A stretch of 64,000 bases of DNA from Pantoea sp. WMus005. Lineage in GTDB: Bacteria; Pseudomonadota; Gammaproteobacteria; Enterobacterales; Enterobacteriaceae. Numbering within the stretch: the first letter of the stretch is position 1; each line of letters starts with the position of its first letter. Where the stretch lies: the NCBI RefSeq assembly GCF_013415305.1, contig NZ_JACBXU010000001.1, forward strand, positions 930,001 through 994,000. Reading direction: 5' to 3'. The position numbers were made by a program, and so were the translations under genes. Below the pieces are notes generated by a model. That model did no database searches. It was not told the DNA's origin and was given only the letters and a program-made list of their open reading frames with translations. This document shows positions 23,157 to 50,854 of the stretch, one piece after another.

Positions 23157-23184
23157 AAAAAAAAGCCCGCTCGGTGGCGGGCTC
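23157..23184 (-). terminator. trp attenuator (3:4 terminator)
   Basis: On the minus strand AGCCCGC, a six-base loop and GCGGGCT (23183-23164) run into eight Ts (23164-23157). The stem is the same as the E. coli trp attenuator. Upstream segments can form a competing antiterminator: CGGGC, GGT, GCACA and GCG before the leader stop pair with CGC, TGTGC, ACC and GCCCG after it, using the left arm of the terminator. Confidence 0.92.
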
Positions 23185-23201
23185 AGGTATTAGCACAGCG
23201 T

Positions 23202-23282
23202 TTACGCAAAGTGTGCACGACCCAGTCGCCCGTTTTCAGGAGCATCGCGCCAACCGTTTAAATGCGTGATTACAACAGCCAT
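23202..23282 (-). CDS. trpL: trp operon leader peptide (unusual, 26 codons, one Trp)
   Basis: Reads MAVVITHLNGW, then RDAPENGRLGRAHFA and stop. Alignment to the E. coli leader is clear at the DNA level (GGTTGG, then CGC, CCTGA, ACGGG). Here one TGG is missing and two bases are gained after it, so the usual early stop is out of frame. Translation runs on to TAA 23204-23202, which lies in the loop of the 2:3 antiterminator. The only Trp codon (23252-23250) sits directly before segment 1, where a stalled ribosome would still mask that segment. A stop inside segment 2/3 would leave the 3:4 terminator free. Attenuation is therefore plausible but arranged differently from E. coli. Confidence 0.7.
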   Translation of the reverse strand: MAVVITHLNGWRDAPENGRLGRAHFA

Positions 23283-43432: not shown

Positions 43433-44131
43433 ATGCTGGAACACCTTAAACAACAGGTTCTGGAAGCGAATCTGGATCTACCTAAATACAACCTGGTGAC
43501 GTTCACCTGGGGCAATGTCAGCGCGATTGATCGCGAACAGGGTTTGCTGGTAATTAAACCTTCCGGCGTGCGCTATGAGGTGATGAAGCGCGACGATATG
43601 GTTGTCGTCGAACTGGCGAGTGGCAACGTGGTAGAAGGCGATAAACGCCCTTCATCGGACACGGCGACGCACCGCGCACTCTATCTCGCCTGGCCGGAAG
43701 TCGGTGGTATTGTCCATACCCATTCGCGTCACGCCACCATTTGGGCGCAGGCTGGACGACCGATTCCGGCCTGGGGAACCACCCACGCCGACGATTTTTA
43801 TGGCGAGATCCCCTGCACCCGTGCAATGCGCAACGACGAGATTCAGCATGAGTACGAGTGGAATACTGGCGAAGTGATTATCGAGACCTTTGCGCAGCGT
43901 GGACTGTCTCCCTCGGCAATTCCGGGCGTGCTGGTCAACTCACATGGTCCGTTTGCCTGGGGCATAGATGCTCACGCCGCCGTGCACAGTGCGGTGGTGC
44001 TGGAGGAGGTGGCCTATATGGGCCTGTTCAGCCAGCAACTGACCCCTGATCTGCCGCCAATTAACCAGACCCTGCTTGACCTGCACTACCTGCGAAAGCA
44101 TGGCGAAAATGCCTGGTACGGGCAAAAATAA
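43433..44131 (+). CDS. araD: L-ribulose-5-phosphate 4-epimerase
   Basis: Class-II aldolase-family zinc enzyme converting L-ribulose 5-phosphate to D-xylulose 5-phosphate. 232 residues, very like E. coli AraD (231). The known functional residues are all present at the same numbers: Asp76, His95, His97, Asp120, His171 and Tyr229. AraD is favoured over UlaF/SgbE by the start ([20 protein letters not shown]) and by [18 protein letters not shown]. No araA, araB or araC is adjacent, so it is an orphan here, between osmB and kdgT. Confidence 0.88.
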
Positions 44132-44135
44132 CAGG

Positions 44136-44164
44136 CGGGGCGCGAAGGCGTCCCGTTTTTTTTA
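44136..44164 (+). terminator. araD terminator
   Basis: CGGGGCGC (44136-44143) pairs with GCGTCCCG (44148-44155) with one G-U pair, loop GAAG, followed by eight Ts. Confidence 0.9.
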
Positions 44165-44224
44165 GTCTCTTTTGAGACTGGTATGGCGATCCTCATCATA
44201 GTTATCAAAACATCCCGTCAACAA

Positions 44225-44244
44225 AATTAAAACAGCGTTTCATT
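44225..44244 (+). promoter_or_regulatory. Possible KdgR box upstream of kdgT
   Basis: AATTAAAACAGCGTTTCATT has an intact right half (GTTTCATT) and an approximate left half of the KdgR palindrome known from pectinolytic enterobacteria. It lies 105 bases before the kdgT start. KdgR normally represses kdgT until 2-keto-3-deoxygluconate is present. Confidence 0.5.
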
Positions 44245-44348
44245 TTATCGGGGCGATCACTGTTTTGATTACCTCAAGTCACTATTTTGCTTGCATCGCC
44301 TTCGGGCACTTTCTGCTCCACCACTTGCAAAGCAAAGGTGACTACCCT

Positions 44349-45332
44349 ATGCACATTAAACGGGCAATAGACAAAATTCCGGGCGGCATGATGCTCATTC
44401 CGCTGTTTATCGGCGCGCTCTGTCATACCTTCTCTCCTGATGCCGGGAAATATTTCGGTTCATTCACCAATGGTCTGATGACCGGCACAGTGCCGATTCT
44501 GGCCGTCTGGTTCTTCTGTATGGGTGCGTCAATTAAGCTCAGCGCCACCGGAACGGTATTGCGTAAATCGGGCACGCTGGTGCTTACTAAAATTGCTGTC
44601 GCCTGGGTGGTTGCTGCCATCGCCTCACGCGTAATGCCTGAGAATGGCGTGGAAGTGGGGATGTTCGCCGGATTATCGACGCTGGCGCTGGTGGCCGCGA
44701 TGGATATGACGAATGGCGGCCTCTATGCTTCCATCATGCAGCAGTACGGTTCTAAAGAGGAAGCGGGCGCATTTGTACTGATGTCACTGGAGTCCGGGCC
44801 ATTAATGACCATGGTTATCCTTGGTACGGCCGGTATCGCCTCGTTTGAGCCACACGTGTTTGTCGGCGCGGTCCTGCCGTTTGTCGTGGGATTTGCATTA
44901 GGGAATCTTGATCCCGAGTTGCGCGATTTCTTCGGTAAAGCTGTACATACGCTGATCCCTTTCTTCGCCTTTGCCCTGGGAAACACGATTAACCTTGGTG
45001 TCATTGCTGAAACCGGACTACTGGGCATCATGCTCGGCGTGGCCGTGATCATCATCACCGGTATCCCGCTTATTCTGGCCGATCGGCTGATTGGGGGCGG
45101 GGATGGCACGGCTGGCATCGCGGCATCGAGTACGGCAGGCGCAGCGGTGGCGACCCCCGTGCTGATTGCCGAGATGCTGCCACAGTTTAAACCCGTGGCT
45201 CCTGCAGCGACGGCGTTGGTTGCCACGTCCGTTATTGTGACCTCTGTCCTGGTCCCCATCATCACCGCCATCTATTCAAAACGTCTTAAGCGTCATCATC
45301 TCGCCGTCGGACAGCGTGCCGCTATTAAGTAA
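44349..45332 (+). CDS. kdgT: 2-keto-3-deoxygluconate permease
   Basis: Proton symporter for 2-keto-3-deoxygluconate, a breakdown product of pectin and uronic acids. 327 residues from [20 protein letters not shown], the same length as E. coli KdgT. Ten hydrophobic segments and the blocks [20 protein letters not shown] and [19 protein letters not shown] are characteristic. The open frame extends 28 codons upstream, but the family starts at 44349. No kdgK, kdgA or uronate genes are adjacent. Confidence 0.95.
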
Positions 45333-45477: not shown

Positions 45478-46344
45478 ATGACAGTTATTAACCAAGCAAC
45501 GTGCAGATTATTTACCGAAGTTGGCAACACCACACAGTTAGTCGCCTATTACGAAGAAGGGCGTCGTACCATGTGGATGATGTTGCGTGCACAACCCCGT
45601 CCGAGCTTCAACCATGAACTGATTGAGGAGATTATGAACCTGAGCTACGCCGCTCAGCGTTCCGGTCTGCCAATCGATTTTTGGGTCACCGGGTCACTGG
45701 TTCCGCAGATGTTCAACGCGGGTGGCGATCTGCGCTTCTTCGTCGAGTGCATTCGCAATAACCGCCGTGAGGCGTTACGTGCCTATGCCCGTGCCTGTGT
45801 TGACTGCATCCATTCTGCAGCACGCGGTTTTGATACCGGCGCGGTAACGCTGGCGATGATTGAGGGCAGTGCGTTAGGCGGCGGATTCGAAGCGGCGCTG
45901 GCGCACCACTTCATTCTGGCGCAGAACAACGCGCGGATGGGCTTCCCGGAAATTGCTTTCAACCTTTTTCCCGGCATGGGCGGCTACTCGCTGGTGGCGC
46001 GTCGTTCCGGCATGAAACTGGCCGAGGAGTTGATCTGTGAAGGGGAGTCCCATAGCGCGGAGTGGTATGAGACGCGCGGGCTGGTGGATAAAGTTTTCCA
46101 GCCGGGCGATAGCTATCGCGCTACACGCACTTTTATCGATACGTTACGGCCAAAACTCAATGGCGTGCGGGCGATGCTGAAAGCGCGTCAGCGCGTGCTG
46201 CAATTGTCACGCGCTGAGCTGATGGATATCACAGAAGACTGGGTCGATTATGCGTTTACCATCGAACCCAAAGACATTGCTTACATGGAACGCCTGGTCC
46301 AGTTACAAAACCGCCACAGCGCATCACTGCGTAAAGCGGGATAA
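45478..46344 (+). CDS. rpfF: RpfF, diffusible signal factor (DSF-family) synthase
   Basis: Crotonase-fold enzyme that dehydrates 3-hydroxyacyl-ACP and releases a cis-2-unsaturated fatty acid signal. 288 residues, as in Xanthomonas RpfF (289). Both catalytic glutamates are at the expected places, Glu138 (GSALGGGFEAAL) and Glu158 (MGFPEIAFNLFPGMG), equivalent to Glu141 and Glu161. The C-terminal ITEDWVDYAF and LVQLQNRHSASLRKAG also fit. AGAGGATGA precedes the ATG. It is convergent with the receptor gene rpfR (12 bases between stops), as expected for an RpfF/RpfR system. E. coli lacks it. By analogy with Burkholderia and Cronobacter the main product would be cis-2-dodecenoic acid (BDSF). Confidence 0.92.
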   Translation: MTVINQATCRLFTEVGNTTQLVAYYEEGRRTMWMMLRAQPRPSFNHELIEEIMNLSYAAQRSGLPIDFWVTGSLVPQMFNAGGDLRFFVECIRNNRREALRAYARACVDCIHSAARGFDTGAVTLAMIEGSALGGGFEAALAHHFILAQNNARMGFPEIAFNLFPGMGGYSLVARRSGMKLAEELICEGESHSAEWYETRGLVDKVFQPGDSYRATRTFIDTLRPKLNGVRAMLKARQRVLQLSRAELMDITEDWVDYAFTIEPKDIAYMERLVQLQNRHSASLRKAG

Positions 46345-46356
46345 TCTGAAGCAGCG

Positions 46357-48342
46357 TTAAACGCGGGCAGGATGCTTAGCCAGCCAATGCCCAAATTGTT
46401 CTGCGGGCATTGGTTTTGCATAATAGTAACCCTGACGCCCATCGACACCACTTTTGAGGACAAAGGCCTCTTCATCCGACGTCTCAATACCTTCCGCGAT
46501 CACCTGCAAATCGAGCGCCTTGGCGACGGCGACGATAGCTCGTACCAGCGATTGTGAAACCGGCTGCTTGTTAATATCACGGATAAAGCTCTGGTCCAGC
46601 TTAATGGCATTGATCGGCACACGTGCAAGCTGTGAAAGCGACGAGTAACCGGTGCCAAAGTCATCCAGATGAACCTGAGCGCCCAGCTCCTGAAACTGCT
46701 TCATCAGCCGTAGTGCTTCGGCTTCATTCTCAATCAGGCAGCTTTCGGTGAGCTCAATATCAATCGGGCAGTCAGTGACATTTGACTCGTGCAACGCCTG
46801 TTTCAGGTCGGTGTAGATACTTTGATCGATCAGTTGACGTGCCGACACGTTGACGGCGACGCGCAGGAAAATGCCCTGCTGGCGCCAGAGGATAATCTGC
46901 TTCAGCACGTTAAGCATCACCCAGCGCCCCAGCGGGACAATCAGTCCCGACTCTTCGGCATAGGGTATGAAATCTGCGGGCGAGACCAGGCCGCGCTCAG
47001 GTGAGTTCCAGCGCACCAGAGCTTCGGCGCTGCGGACCTGACCATCGCTGTCGATTTTCGGCTGGTAATGAACCAGCAGATGATCCAGCTCCAGCGCCTT
47101 GCGCAGGTTGGTGTCCAGCCACAGGTATTCAAAAACCCGCTGATTCATCTCGGCCGCAAAGACACAGAACTTGCCGCGACCGTTCTCTTTGGCGTGATAC
47201 ATCGCGGTATCCGCGTTGCGAATCAGGCTCTCGCGATCTTCGCCATGCAGCGGCGCGAACGCAATCCCGATTGAGCAGCCGCTGTAAACTTCAATCAATC
47301 CGATACGGAAAGGCTGACGCAGGCGCTCAAGAATGCGGGAGGACATCGCCTCAAGTGCCGCCTGGCTGGTGTGCTCAGCCAGCACTACAAACTCATCGCC
47401 ACCCAGACGACCCAGAGTCTGATCTTTGCCCAGACAGCTAAGAATCGCCAGTGAGACGGCCTGAAGTAACTGGTCGCCAAACATATGACCGTAGGCGTCA
47501 TTCACTTTTTTAAAATTATCGAGATCGAGATAGACCACGCCGGTTTCATCGCTCTCCGCGCGCTCCAGTGCCAGGCTTATCTGTTGATGAATGGCGTTAC
47601 GATTAGGCAATCCGGTCACCGTATCGGTGTTTGCCAGCACCCGAAGCCGTTCCTGGGCCCGTCGCTCCTCGGTTATGTCTGTGCCAGAACAGATGAGGAA
47701 AATTTCATTTTTGCCACTGCCGCTGTGAACAAACTTATTACGAAACAAGAACAGTCGCTGGCCCTTTTTGGTTTTAACCCAGCGTTCGACTTCGTAAGAG
47801 TTACCGTCACGGAAGAAGCCCGCAATGTTGCGTCGCGACTGTGAGGCTTCCTGTTTGGTCATAAATAACTGAAAGACATTCCGGCCAATAACCTCATGCT
47901 CATTCAGACCGGTGTATTCTTCACTCAGGCGGTTAAACCGCTGAATATTGCCGCGCTGATCGAGGATCACAATGACGGAATTGGCTTCAGAAACGACCTG
48001 TTCGGCGAATGAAAGTCCCAGGGTTAAGTCGCGGGCGACCGCAGACGTATCACCCCAGGCCGAGGCGGTTCCGGCCCAGGAGGCCTGGTTCACTTTGCGC
48101 CCGACAAAATGCATTGGCACATCAATGCCCTGCAAAGTTATGCTCAGATTGATACTTGAGGTGATAACCGGCATTGCGCGGATTATTGCAGCCTGGCCGG
48201 GTGTTAACGGGAGGGCGATATTGGTTTTTGACGACTCATCTTCGGCAAAATGCAACGCATCGCTGTCCGCGGTCAGACGCCAATGAGGGCTGGTTGTACC
48301 AAATAGCGTGTACAACAACGTTTGCCCTTGTTCATCGGTCAT
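46357..48342 (-). CDS. rpfR: RpfR, DSF receptor with FI-PAS-GGDEF-EAL domains (PdeR/YciR/Gmr orthologue)
   Basis: 661 residues, the same as E. coli PdeR. Domains in order: RpfF-interaction (FI) domain about 1-95, PAS about 110-225 (EANSVIVILDQRGNIQRFNR), GGDEF about 235-395 with intact GRLGGDEF at 311-318, EAL about 405-655 with Glu440-Ala-Leu, DDFGTGYSS at 560-568 and KLDQ at 581-584. Both output motifs are intact, so both c-di-GMP synthesis and hydrolysis are possible. In Burkholderia, BDSF binding to the PAS raises phosphodiesterase activity and the FI domain binds and restrains RpfF. In E. coli the orthologue acts with DgcM and MlrA on csgD. Confidence 0.95.
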   Translation of the reverse strand: MTDEQGQTLLYTLFGTTSPHWRLTADSDALHFAEDESSKTNIALPLTPGQAAIIRAMPVITSSINLSITLQGIDVPMHFVGRKVNQASWAGTASAWGDTSAVARDLTLGLSFAEQVVSEANSVIVILDQRGNIQRFNRLSEEYTGLNEHEVIGRNVFQLFMTKQEASQSRRNIAGFFRDGNSYEVERWVKTKKGQRLFLFRNKFVHSGSGKNEIFLICSGTDITEERRAQERLRVLANTDTVTGLPNRNAIHQQISLALERAESDETGVVYLDLDNFKKVNDAYGHMFGDQLLQAVSLAILSCLGKDQTLGRLGGDEFVVLAEHTSQAALEAMSSRILERLRQPFRIGLIEVYSGCSIGIAFAPLHGEDRESLIRNADTAMYHAKENGRGKFCVFAAEMNQRVFEYLWLDTNLRKALELDHLLVHYQPKIDSDGQVRSAEALVRWNSPERGLVSPADFIPYAEESGLIVPLGRWVMLNVLKQIILWRQQGIFLRVAVNVSARQLIDQSIYTDLKQALHESNVTDCPIDIELTESCLIENEAEALRLMKQFQELGAQVHLDDFGTGYSSLSQLARVPINAIKLDQSFIRDINKQPVSQSLVRAIVAVAKALDLQVIAEGIETSDEEAFVLKSGVDGRQGYYYAKPMPAEQFGHWLAKHPARV

Positions 48343-48501: not shown

Positions 48502-48792
48502 TCAGCAAGGACATTTGCCCAGTTTACCCGCCTGGCTTGGGAAGCGTGCGTCCAGACAGTACCGATGAAAATCCCGCTCATTCATCGGCAACTGATTGGG
48601 ATGATGCAGTCGCATATGCTGCAGATATTTTTGATAATCCTGCACCCCGACCATTAAGCGAAAGCACTGTTGCAGGCCGCGCCAGAATTCGCGCCAGCTG
48701 AACGCCTGTGGCTGTGCCGGAGCGGTTGGGTGGCAGCGGATAATCTGCCACTTTCCCTTTGGTCGGTGGGCCTGGCAGAGAGCATCAGACAT
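48502..48792 (-). CDS. YbdD-family protein encoded with the CstA-type transporter
   Basis: 96 residues from ATG 48792, which overlaps the end of the transporter gene by eight bases (ATGTCTGA), so translation is coupled. The C-terminal half (VGVQDYQKYLQHMRLHHPNQ, then ARFPSQAGKLGKCPC) matches the YbdD/YjiX family, small CstA/BtsT partners ending in Cys-rich GxxC. The first 45 residues (HRPKGKWQIIRCHPTAPAQP) have no counterpart in the 65-67-residue E. coli proteins; a later start inside this extension cannot be excluded. YbdD/YjiX are needed for pyruvate transport by their partners. Confidence 0.8.
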   Translation of the reverse strand: MSDALCQAHRPKGKWQIIRCHPTAPAQPQAFSWREFWRGLQQCFRLMVGVQDYQKYLQHMRLHHPNQLPMNERDFHRYCLDARFPSQAGKLGKCPC

Positions 48793-50854
48793 GACGCACC
48801 TCCTTGCTGCGCAGTGCCACTGGCGTCTCACTGGTAGTCGGTACCGTACTGTTCAGCGCACGACGAATCACAAAGAATGCCGAGATCAGCATCGTGACCG
48901 CCACCAGCATAAAGAAGGCACACAACGCGGCGTTAATCTGATTGCTGAATACAATGGTCTGCATATCCGCCACGCTTTTTGCTGGCGCGATCATTACGCC
49001 TTCATCCAGCCCTTTGCGGAATTTATTTGCCTGTGCCAGGAAGCCGATAGACGGTTTCTCATGGAAGATTTTCTGCCAGCCCGCGGTCATCGACGTGATA
49101 AACAACCAGACGGTCGGCAGGATGGTCACCCAGGCGTAACGCTGCTTTTTCATTTTGAACAGCACGACGGTACCGAGAATCAGCGCCATCGACGCCAGCA
49201 TCTGGTTACCGATACCAAACAGGGGCCACAGGGTGTTAATTCCACCAAGCGGATCGACCACACCCTGATAGACAAAGAAGCCCCAGCCCGCGACCGCAAC
49301 GGTCGTGCCTGCCATATTGCCGAGCCAGGAGCGGTTGTTCGCCATAGACGGCACCACGGTGCCCACCAGATCCTGCACCATAAAACGGCAGGCGCGGGTA
49401 CCGGCATCAACGGCCGTCAGGATGAACAGCGCCTCAAACAGAATGGCGAAGTGATACCAGAAGGCCATCATCGCCCGGCTGTTAAAGATTTCGGTGATGA
49501 TGTGTGCCATTCCAACGGCAAAGGTCGGCGCGCCACCTGCGCGGGACAGAATTGAGCCTTCACCCACGTCGCGGGCGATACCACTCAGCATTTCAGGTGT
49601 AACGACAAAGCCCCAGCCATTGATCACCTGCGAGGCGCTTTCAACCGTGGTGCCAATCAGCGCGGCAGGTGAGTTCATGGCAAAGTAGACGCCTGGATCC
49701 AGCACCGAAGCACAAATCAGCGCCATGATCGCCACAAAGGACTCCATCAGCATCGCGCCATAGCCAATAAAGCGAATATGGCTTTCCCGCTCCACCAGTT
49801 TTGGCGTGGTGCCGCTGGAGACCAGTGCGTGGAAGCCGGAGATTGCGCCACAGGCAATTGTAATAAACAGGAACGGGAACATCGCGCCGGAGAATACCGG
49901 GCCGGTACCGTCGATGAATTTGGTGACTGCCGGCATTTTCATTTCTGGCATGGCGAAAACGATACCCACCGCCAGACCGACAATCACGCCGATTTTCAGG
50001 AAGGTCGAAAGGTAGTCGCGCGGCGCCAGCAGCAGCCACACCGGCAGCACCGAGGCAATAAAGCCGTAGATCACTAGCACCCAGGTCAGCGAGGTGCCCT
50101 TGAGCGTAAAGAAGGGGCCCCAGTATGGATGTTGTGCCACATTGCCACCATAGATAATCGCCGCCATCATCAGCACAAAGCCAATCAGTGACACCTCGGC
50201 GATTTTACCCGGGCGGATAAAGCGCATGTAGATGCCCATAAACAGCGCAATCGGAATGGTCGCTGCAATGGTAAACAAGCCCCACGGGCTGTTCGCCAGC
50301 GCCTTCACGACGACCAGCGCCAGCGCCGACAGGATAATGATCATCACGCCCAGTGCGCCGAGCATCGTCACCACACCGGCAAACGCGCCCAGTTCCTGCC
50401 GCGCCATCTCGCCCAGTGAACGGCCATCACGGCGGGTGGAGATAAACAGGATCAGGAAATCCTGGACCGCGCCGGCCAGCATTACCCCGACCAGAATCCA
50501 GATGGTGCCCGGCAGAAAACCCATCTGCGCCGCCAGAATCGGACCGACCAGCGGACCGGCACCGGCTATGGCTGCGAAGTGGTGGCCAAACAGCACCCAT
50601 TTATTGGTCGGGACATAATCCAGCCCGTCGCTCAGCCGCTCGGCAGGCGTCATCCGGCGGTCATCCAGTTCGAAAATATTGCGGGCGATAAACAGGCTGT
50701 AGAAGCGATACGCGATGCTGTAACAGGCGACAGCGGCTATCACCAGCCAGACTGCGTTGACGTGTTCGCCGCGGCTGAGGGCCAGCATGGCGAAAGCGCC
50801 CGCGCCGATTAACGCCACCACTAACCAGATCGCACTGGTTTTGACGTTTTTCAT
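48785..50854 (-). CDS. CstA/BtsT-family pyruvate or carbon-starvation transporter
   Basis: 689 residues with about 18 membrane helices. Family blocks: GLDYVPTNKWVLFGHHFAAI, GAGPLVGPILAAQMG, AVQDFLILFISTRRDGRSLG and VVDPLGGINTLWPLFGIGNQ. E. coli has two relatives, CstA and BtsT (YjiY), both pyruvate importers; this protein resembles both and cannot be assigned to one by eye. It sits between rpfR and rnb, where E. coli has no such gene. AAGGAG precedes the ATG and a YbdD-type gene overlaps its end. Confidence 0.9.
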   Translation of the reverse strand: MKNVKTSAIWLVVALIGAGAFAMLALSRGEHVNAVWLVIAAVACYSIAYRFYSLFIARNIFELDDRRMTPAERLSDGLDYVPTNKWVLFGHHFAAIAGAGPLVGPILAAQMGFLPGTIWILVGVMLAGAVQDFLILFISTRRDGRSLGEMARQELGAFAGVVTMLGALGVMIIILSALALVVVKALANSPWGLFTIAATIPIALFMGIYMRFIRPGKIAEVSLIGFVLMMAAIIYGGNVAQHPYWGPFFTLKGTSLTWVLVIYGFIASVLPVWLLLAPRDYLSTFLKIGVIVGLAVGIVFAMPEMKMPAVTKFIDGTGPVFSGAMFPFLFITIACGAISGFHALVSSGTTPKLVERESHIRFIGYGAMLMESFVAIMALICASVLDPGVYFAMNSPAALIGTTVESASQVINGWGFVVTPEMLSGIARDVGEGSILSRAGGAPTFAVGMAHIITEIFNSRAMMAFWYHFAILFEALFILTAVDAGTRACRFMVQDLVGTVVPSMANNRSWLGNMAGTTVAVAGWGFFVYQGVVDPLGGINTLWPLFGIGNQMLASMALILGTVVLFKMKKQRYAWVTILPTVWLFITSMTAGWQKIFHEKPSIGFLAQANKFRKGLDEGVMIAPAKSVADMQTIVFSNQINAALCAFFMLVAVTMLISAFFVIRRALNSTVPTTSETPVALRSKEVRHV

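Follow-up and report, generated by a model that had tools for sequence, protein, structure and literature searches.

The DNA analyzed here (referred to below as the window) is a 64,000-nucleotide stretch from Pantoea sp. WMus005, positions 930,001 to 994,000 of contig NZ_JACBXU010000001.1, in a genome of 4.49 Mb in 41 contigs. It carries two intact, convergent genes, rpfF and rpfR, whose products are predicted to form a complete synthase/receptor pair of the BDSF (Burkholderia diffusible signal factor) type that would control the level of cyclic diguanylate (c-di-GMP). The rpfF gene (positions 45478 to 46344 of the window, plus strand) encodes a DSF/BDSF synthase of the crotonase family of 288 amino acids and ends with the TAA codon at 46342-46344. 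The rpfR gene (46357 to 48342, minus strand; an orthologue of pdeR, also referred to as yciR or gmr) encodes a BDSF receptor of 661 amino acids with c-di-GMP domains and has its stop codon at 46357-46359. The two convergent stops are separated by the 12-base sequence TCTGAAGCAGCG (46345 to 46356). The initial annotation, made from the sequence without database searches, had given the same coordinates, strands, lengths, convergent orientation, and gap, and its reading of the two genes as a complete pair is likewise upheld.

Over its residues 6 to 285, the RpfF protein matches the solved RpfF structures 6dgn_A (E value of 2e-128) and 5fus (7.4e-128); it is assigned to ECH_1 by Pfam and is 100% identical (after rounding) over residues 1 to 288 to the proteins from Candidatus Pantoea varia, P. 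agglomerans, P. conspicua, and P. brenneri. On this basis, the host is a Pantoea that probably belongs to the agglomerans group. Both glutamates that had been noted in the initial annotation, E138 and E158, which we take to be the catalytic residues, occur without exception in the 119 aligned RpfF rows (approximately 110 distinct genes, because eight genomes and the gene of the window itself are represented twice). This alignment comprises the window and 118 of the 120 loci, with proteins of 288 to 289 amino acids; broken genes of 247 and 4 amino acids were excluded. Both glutamates are also aligned in the match to the structure 3m6m (E value of 1.4e-43), an RpfF of the Xanthomonas type. A point that weighs against the assignment is the score of 177.1 bits, under the cut-off of 550, with NCBIfam NF053515, the only RpfF-named model among the matches listed (25 of 56), so the protein is not filed under this equivalog; NF053515 may itself be of the Xanthomonas type. 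The cut-off of NF006452 (crotonase/enoyl-CoA hydratase) is reached (410.7 versus 177). Among the other genomes, G493 carries, in addition to the usual pair, a second rpfF-like gene with 72% identity to that in the window (G493:C7:1005864-1006727), and at locus L128 (G553:C1) rpfF is seemingly broken into two frames near residues 135 to 138 next to an open rpfR, a possible loss in progress.

The RpfR protein scores 1205.7 bits with NF007474 (cut-off of 782), and its FI (RpfF-interaction), PAS, GGDEF, and EAL domains are all present, as had been claimed. The PAS (residues 118 to 224; 47671 to 47991), GGDEF (residues 237 to 390; 47173 to 47634), and EAL (residues 412 to 644; 46411 to 47109) domains, all on the minus strand like the gene itself, are recognized by Pfam, the latter two also by their motifs. 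These are GGDEF at position 314, EAL at 440, and DDFGTGYSS at 560 (read on L004, whose RpfR has the same length); none of the 156 aligned RpfR rows has a damaged GGDEF or EAL motif. The FI domain (residues 1 to 95; 48058 to 48342) is covered by a match to 6dga (1 to 95), and its predicted AlphaFold2 model was superimposed by Foldseek on 6dgn_B with a TMt of 0.93 and a root mean square deviation of 0.7 Å over 87 columns. The model, calculated for residues 1 to 236 from 37 sequences, has a mean predicted local distance difference test (pLDDT) score of 65.5, the PAS part being poor and the FI part good (66 to 93 by blocks over residues 1 to 100). Its six strands and two helices in the FI domain comprise helix 3-14, strands 20-24, 29-33, and 40-45, helix 48-55, and strands 62-70, 73-85, and 88-95. 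All five PAS residues (S169, N172, Y183, R187, and N202) that, in passages of PMC6361424, surround the carboxylate and C3 of BDSF are found in the RpfR of the window.

In a survey of 392 genomes of the same GTDB family, rpfF (at an E value of ≤1e-60) was detected in 99 and the N-terminal part of RpfR (at ≤1e-25) in 141. In all 99 rpfF-carrying genomes, a convergent rpfR lies on the contig that holds rpfF; a further 42 genomes have an RpfR match without rpfF (two of these, G269 and G448, being doubtful), and not a single one of the 392 has rpfF without rpfR. Two loci that encode other crotonases (L002 and L003) were excluded from every count, and those with truncated or broken rpfF (L127 and L128) were counted as pairs. 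Four of the 42 RpfR-only genomes (referred to below as orphans) were set aside, namely G269 (broken, 49% complete), G298 and G433 (contig ends), and G448, whose 42% match covers only the PAS part and perhaps represents no RpfR; the E. coli locus L161 was added to the orphan set. At every one of 81 loci (80 from named genomes plus that of the window), the genes converge, with stop-to-stop gaps from -4 (overlapping stops, 19 loci) up to 299. In certain genomes, the two genes are separated by insertions of about 1.5 kb (G112, G140, G546, and G603), 1.7 kb (G302), 6 kb (G479), or 0.3 to 0.4 kb (G420 and G562); at loci L122, L123, L124, and L126, the DNA inserted between the convergent stops has left both genes in place, and the cargo, judged by eye, includes a LysR-like gene with a second small frame in L124 (G112) and fimbria-like genes in L123 (G479). 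In E. coli, blastn at an E value of 1e-5 found no rpfF in any of 5,426 genomes; rpfR was matched in 5,372 of them and is annotated as pdeR in all 10 of the matches listed. E. coli is thus a receptor-only species, as the initial annotation had it and as passages of PMC6361424 also describe (the receptor there being named gmr). The receptor itself may have been lost in G591, which encodes a protein with an N-terminal part 95% identical to that of E. coli DgcM and has no RpfR N-terminal match at 1e-25.

Receptors with and without an accompanying synthase were compared using the alignment of 156 RpfR rows, of which 147 are distinct (109 pairs and 38 orphans; counts of pairs and orphans refer to distinct rows, with repeat genomes merged); three short rows, L001 (494 amino acids), L006 (563), and L014 (523), were excluded. 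To avoid circularity, the FI test positions were taken from the pairs outside the enteric clade, as the 16 sites that are invariant in all 73 such distinct rows. At these positions, the 36 enteric pairs show no departures (0/576, 0%), versus 100 of 608 (16.45%) in the 38 orphans, 36 of which have at least one. The hardest-hit sites in orphans are D26, S27, and A29, located in the first turn and the second strand, and positions 71 and 72, which are mostly occupied by F, Y, H, or Q followed by G in pairs and often by D or E in orphans. In the model, positions 71 and 72 fall in the predicted β4-β5 loop, which in the FI domain described in passages of PMC6361424 is buried against RpfF. The complete set of five PAS contacts is found in 109 of the 109 pairs versus 16 of the 38 orphans. 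Compared to the RpfR of pairs, PdeR of E. coli strain PapM-32-1 carries the replacements D26S, A29V, and G72E in the FI domain and R187L in the pocket. These patterns suggest that orphan RpfR proteins, after the loss of rpfF, underwent decay of the FI domain and of the pocket for the signal, with the catalytic motifs kept. No comparison of FI decay in orphans was found in titles and abstract openings of the related literature.

The same differences would be expected if orphan RpfR proteins simply evolved faster in general, for reasons unrelated to the loss of RpfF, and departures are indeed higher in orphans than in enteric pairs in the GGDEF (0.88 versus 0.15%) and EAL (2.47 versus 0.83%) domains, as well as in the PAS domain (4.59 versus 0.89%). 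However, the contrast in the FI domain is between 16.45 and 0%, and it is also seen at matched divergence of the EAL domain: at an EAL identity of 0.89 to 0.92, FI identity has a median of 0.71 for comparisons between pairs (n = 247) versus 0.56 for those between orphans (n = 156), and orphan values are the lower ones in each EAL-identity bin from 0.70 to 0.95. Moreover, the only two orphans without FI departures, L084 and L121, are both placed in the tree among pair-bearing genomes. Two results weigh against the decay of the FI domain. Among close relatives (EAL identity of 0.95 to 0.98), the FI identity is 0.93 for orphans and 0.87 for pairs, that is, with no orphan deficit (above 0.98, the values are 0.94 for pairs and 0.93 for orphans), and phylogenetically independent pairs, drawn from supported branches only and too few to decide, provided four usable comparisons, of which two were in favor, none against, and two equal (P = 0.5). 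On balance, general fast evolution appears quite unlikely to account for the orphan FI sequences, and their decay following the loss of rpfF is the preferred explanation.

Whether the pair in Pantoea represents the ancestral or an acquired state had been left open by the initial annotation, and the data point to the former. Outside the enteric clade, each of the 73 distinct rows is a pair; orphans are confined to that clade, several of them adjoining pairs in a tree calculated from the GGDEF-EAL part (122 rows, 33 of them orphans). In this tree, the Erwinia/Pantoea rows and a deep group of 13 rows consist of pairs only, and at least 11 changes between the pair and orphan states are needed; an enteric-only tree requires at least 10. 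The former tree was built by a quick method and rooted at midpoint, with 39 of its 119 inner branches left open. The distances between RpfF proteins correlate with those between the respective RpfR proteins (r = 0.89 for 115 loci, with eight genomes present twice and without an unrelated control gene pair). Finally, the pyrF-yciH-osmB and rnb-fabI flanks are the same as around E. coli pdeR, with some of the intervening genes differing. Because the trees, the distance correlation, the linkage, and the shared gene order all agree, the pair is best regarded as ancestral, with rpfF repeatedly lost. A recent horizontal acquisition of the pair in the lineage of the window would agree with the patchy distribution of rpfF (99 of 392 family genomes); it is made highly improbable by the convergent rpfR on the same contig in 99 of 99 cases, the common flanks, the correlated distances, and the nesting of orphans among pairs. 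A recent gain of rpfF was ruled out by this nesting and the linkage, even if on single branches rpfF may have been regained next to rpfR. The possible contribution of DgcM to the loss of rpfF was also considered and rejected: DgcM is found in 23 of 42 orphans versus 21 of 99 pairs, an enrichment confounded by kinship. In E. coli (L161:5704-5832, NZ_CP049204.1), the place that rpfF occupies in pair genomes is taken by the small gene ymiD, antisense to the 3' end of pdeR. It was rejected as an rpfF remnant, as no likeness to RpfF was detected at the E. coli locus by tblastn at an E value of 0.01.

The 3' ends of the two genes provide a second line of observations. Contrary to the statement in the initial annotation that there was no obvious terminator, a hairpin followed by a T run lies on the rpfF strand within rpfR codons. 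This element (46384 to 46417, plus strand) has the structure CCAATGCCC-N12-GGGCATTGG followed by TTTT; with the subsequent GC, it spans 46384 to 46419 (CCAATGCCC-N12-GGGCATTGG-TTTTGC) and overlaps the codons for KPMPAEQFGHW. Its 9 to 11 pairs have a folding energy of -14.3 to -17.5 kcal/mol, and its 12-base loop falls outside the pattern of the terminator tool. The 46-base segment with the hairpin folds at -17.5 kcal/mol, a value reached by 4 of 200 shuffles, and against 300 synonymous re-drawings of the rpfR end the element is significant at P = 0.003 (locus L001, the window's own). Among the Pantoea-like loci, the stem is kept in 35 of 36, with TTT also present in 32 of the 36; elsewhere, the stem was found in 2 of 22 Erwinia-like pairs, 2 of the 53 remaining distinct pairs, and none of the 38 orphans. 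In the Pantoea-like group, synonymous diversity reaches its minimum in the last windows of rpfR (z = -2.16, the lowest of 375 windows covering residues 260 to 661). In a separate run with the 31 of 36 loci that passed the alignment filter, the last windows were again the lowest, out of 361. The covariation test (29 predicted pairs, two of them with both sides changed and pairing kept, neither in the main stem) is uninformative for the main stem because that stem is too conserved. An antisense small gene was rejected as a source of the synonymous constraint, since no reading frame of constant length was found. For rpfR, a weaker terminator-like hairpin (46311 to 46339, with a TTTTG tail; the whole element at 46303 to 46339, minus strand) was detected by the hairpin scan in the 3' codons of rpfF, and the 96-base end on the rpfR strand folds like its shuffles (z = -0.82).

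From its sequence and predicted fold, the embedded hairpin is a putative rpfF terminator. The location of a terminator 40 bases beyond the rpfF stop, inside the neighboring gene, would fit the distance effect reported in PMC4824070, where a terminator several base pairs past a gene was almost completely repressed and terminator strength rose with distance. A different hairpin, GACGCC-N15-GGCGTC-TTCTTT, is located deeper in rpfR in enteric pairs, where it was found in 27 of 36 rows versus 4 of 38 orphans (L084, L085, L086, and L121). Its absence from 34 of the 38 orphans suggests a function on the rpfF side, though kinship could also explain this distribution. At residue 622, the codon window that spans this hairpin shows the lowest synonymous diversity of 386 such windows in enteric pairs (z = -1.05) and an average value (z = -0.09) in enteric orphans; single P values against synonymous shuffles are modest, approximately 0.01 to 0.1. 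Among 113 loci (85 pairs and 28 orphans, with near-identical 3' ends removed), a hairpin that beats synonymous shuffles was found in 27 of 85 pairs versus 2 of 28 orphans at P ≤ 0.05 and in 45 of 85 versus 5 of 28 at P ≤ 0.1. Several observations speak against a terminator function: the full 86-base 3' region of rpfF is no more stably folded than shuffled sequences (z = -1.12); the T run (TTTTGC) is short; most Erwinia-like pairs lack the stem; and, under a loose rule, any terminator-like hairpin in rpfR is found in 49 of 85 pairs versus 17 of 28 orphans, with no separation between them. No literature on rpfF, rpfR, and a terminator together was found.

These data also bear on the earlier proposal that, with no effective terminator, read-through antisense transcription across the 12-base gap couples the levels of RpfF and RpfR. 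Such coupling could be favored by the tight convergence, which is widespread (81 of 81 loci, gap of -4 in 19), by the short T run of the embedded hairpin, and by the lack of this hairpin in many Erwinia-like pairs. On the other hand, the stem and T run kept in the Pantoea group, in codons nearly free of synonymous change, make unhindered read-through doubtful, and loci with gaps of 79 to 85 bases (L068, L069, and L071) hold hairpin-plus-T sequences within the gap (recognized in L068 and L069 by eye and not by the scan, and scored in L071). Coupling by read-through is therefore considered unlikely, and, given the position of the hairpin and T run, the antisense overlap is probably confined to about the last 60 to 70 bases of rpfR. 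A somewhat less unlikely alternative is that the conserved block at the 3' end of rpfR serves some other role, such as a small RNA derived from the rpfF 3' untranslated region, a stem that stabilizes the end of the rpfR transcript, or an inverted repeat bound by a protein. The synonymous constraint does reach past the stem (to codons 655 to 660 and AACGCGGGCAGGATGCTTAGCCAG), the T run is weak, and the motif occurs once in the genome at up to 2 mismatches. However, the T run is on the rpfF side only, no Rfam family matches the element at the gathering threshold, no antisense frame of constant length exists, and the pair-associated distribution of the enteric hairpin again points to the rpfF side, unless it reflects kinship. 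Termination of rpfF transcription remains the favored function of the embedded element.

The genes around the pair, recognized from their translations, are pyrF, yciH, and osmB on one side and cstA-like, rnb, yciW-like, fabI, and sapF on the other. In E. coli, the order is lapB, pyrF, yciH, osmB, yciT, yciZ, ymiD, pdeR, rnb, yciW, fabI; the chromosomal place is common to both organisms, with some of the intervening genes differing. The description of the host as having an E. coli-like backbone is accurate for the gene order and for nothing beyond it, because the host is a Pantoea. Judged by eye, an aldolase-like gene and a KdgT-like permease gene (43433 to 45332) lie next to the pair in the place held by yciT, yciZ, and ymiD in the E. 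coli record; on the other side, a CstA-like gene and a small frame (48502 to 50854) lie where that record has only a hypothetical frame of 34 residues. Elsewhere in the window, an Rfam tryptophan operon leader (23157 to 23258, minus strand) was found upstream of apparent trp genes.

Taken together, the observations are best explained by a vertically inherited RpfF/RpfR system that is ancestral to the sampled lineages, in which rpfF was later lost alone several times, the FI domain and signal pocket decayed in orphan receptors, and a probable rpfF terminator is embedded in rpfR; this explanation as a whole is assigned a probability of roughly 0.85. By analogy with Cronobacter and Burkholderia, RpfF would make a cis-2-unsaturated fatty acid of the BDSF type from acyl-acyl carrier protein, the FI domain of RpfR would bind and restrain RpfF, and binding of the signal by the PAS domain would raise the c-di-GMP phosphodiesterase activity, favoring dispersal over matrix. 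The common ancestor of the sampled lineages would already have carried the pair; rpfF would later have been lost on its own, with no genome of this sample left with rpfF but without rpfR, and each orphan RpfR would then retain its catalytic motifs as its FI domain and signal pocket decay. Transcription of rpfF probably ends at the hairpin in the last codons of rpfR, so that the two 3' ends would overlap briefly. The idea, put forward in passages of PMC6361424, that RpfR must restrain RpfF fits these data because rpfF was never found alone in 392 genomes. A more general proposition, which is favored by a narrow measure, is that RpfF alone maintains the FI domain, that each loss of rpfF lets this domain and the pocket drift, making the receptor signal-independent or re-wired like PdeR, and that rpfF terminators arise at varied sites in rpfR and vanish with rpfF.

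The pair as such is nothing unusual in Pantoea and its relatives, and it belongs to the type already published for Burkholderia and Cronobacter. The main interest lies in the decay of the FI domain that follows the loss of rpfF and in the 3' element embedded in rpfR. A literature search, with most subscription journals outside its coverage, showed, among the papers listed, no title or abstract opening on this pair in Pantoea. The closest solved relatives are the RpfF and the RpfR FI and PAS domains of Burkholderia and Cronobacter, the two genera from which the initial annotation had stated the system to be known. The Cronobacter turicensis system, as seen in passages of PMC4698668 and PMC6361424, has the same convergent genes, FI-PAS-GGDEF-EAL receptor in which FI inhibits RpfF and PAS is the BDSF site, crotonase-type synthase, and five PAS contacts. 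There, c-di-GMP rises 3.9-fold in the rpfR mutant and 3.4-fold in the rpfF mutant, and homologues are listed in Achromobacter, Yersinia, Serratia, Enterobacter, and Cronobacter (PMC4698668). Pantoea differs from it in genus and in that its function is predicted from sequence. The Burkholderia cenocepacia system (RpfF-Bc/RpfR; 5fus and 6dgn) uses the same synthase and receptor families and differs in having BerB as a partner of RpfR, as described in passages of PMC9684580. RpfF of Xanthomonas belongs to the same DSF synthase family and is far more distant, and its RpfC/RpfG route differs from that of RpfR (passages of PMC4698668). The orthologous receptor of E. coli, PdeR (YciR/Gmr), is encoded between osmB and rnb, at the syntenic position, and, unlike that of Pantoea, has no rpfF beside it. 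DgcM, the known partner of E. coli PdeR, had no match at an E value of 1e-15 in five sampled genomes of the genus of the window, its own included. The comparison suggests that E. coli PdeR is a former quorum-sensing receptor that has lost the face that bound the synthase and one of its contacts with the signal (R187), and residues 26, 27, 29, 71-72, 172, and 187 offer direct test points both for this lost receptor role and for the restraint of RpfF by RpfR.

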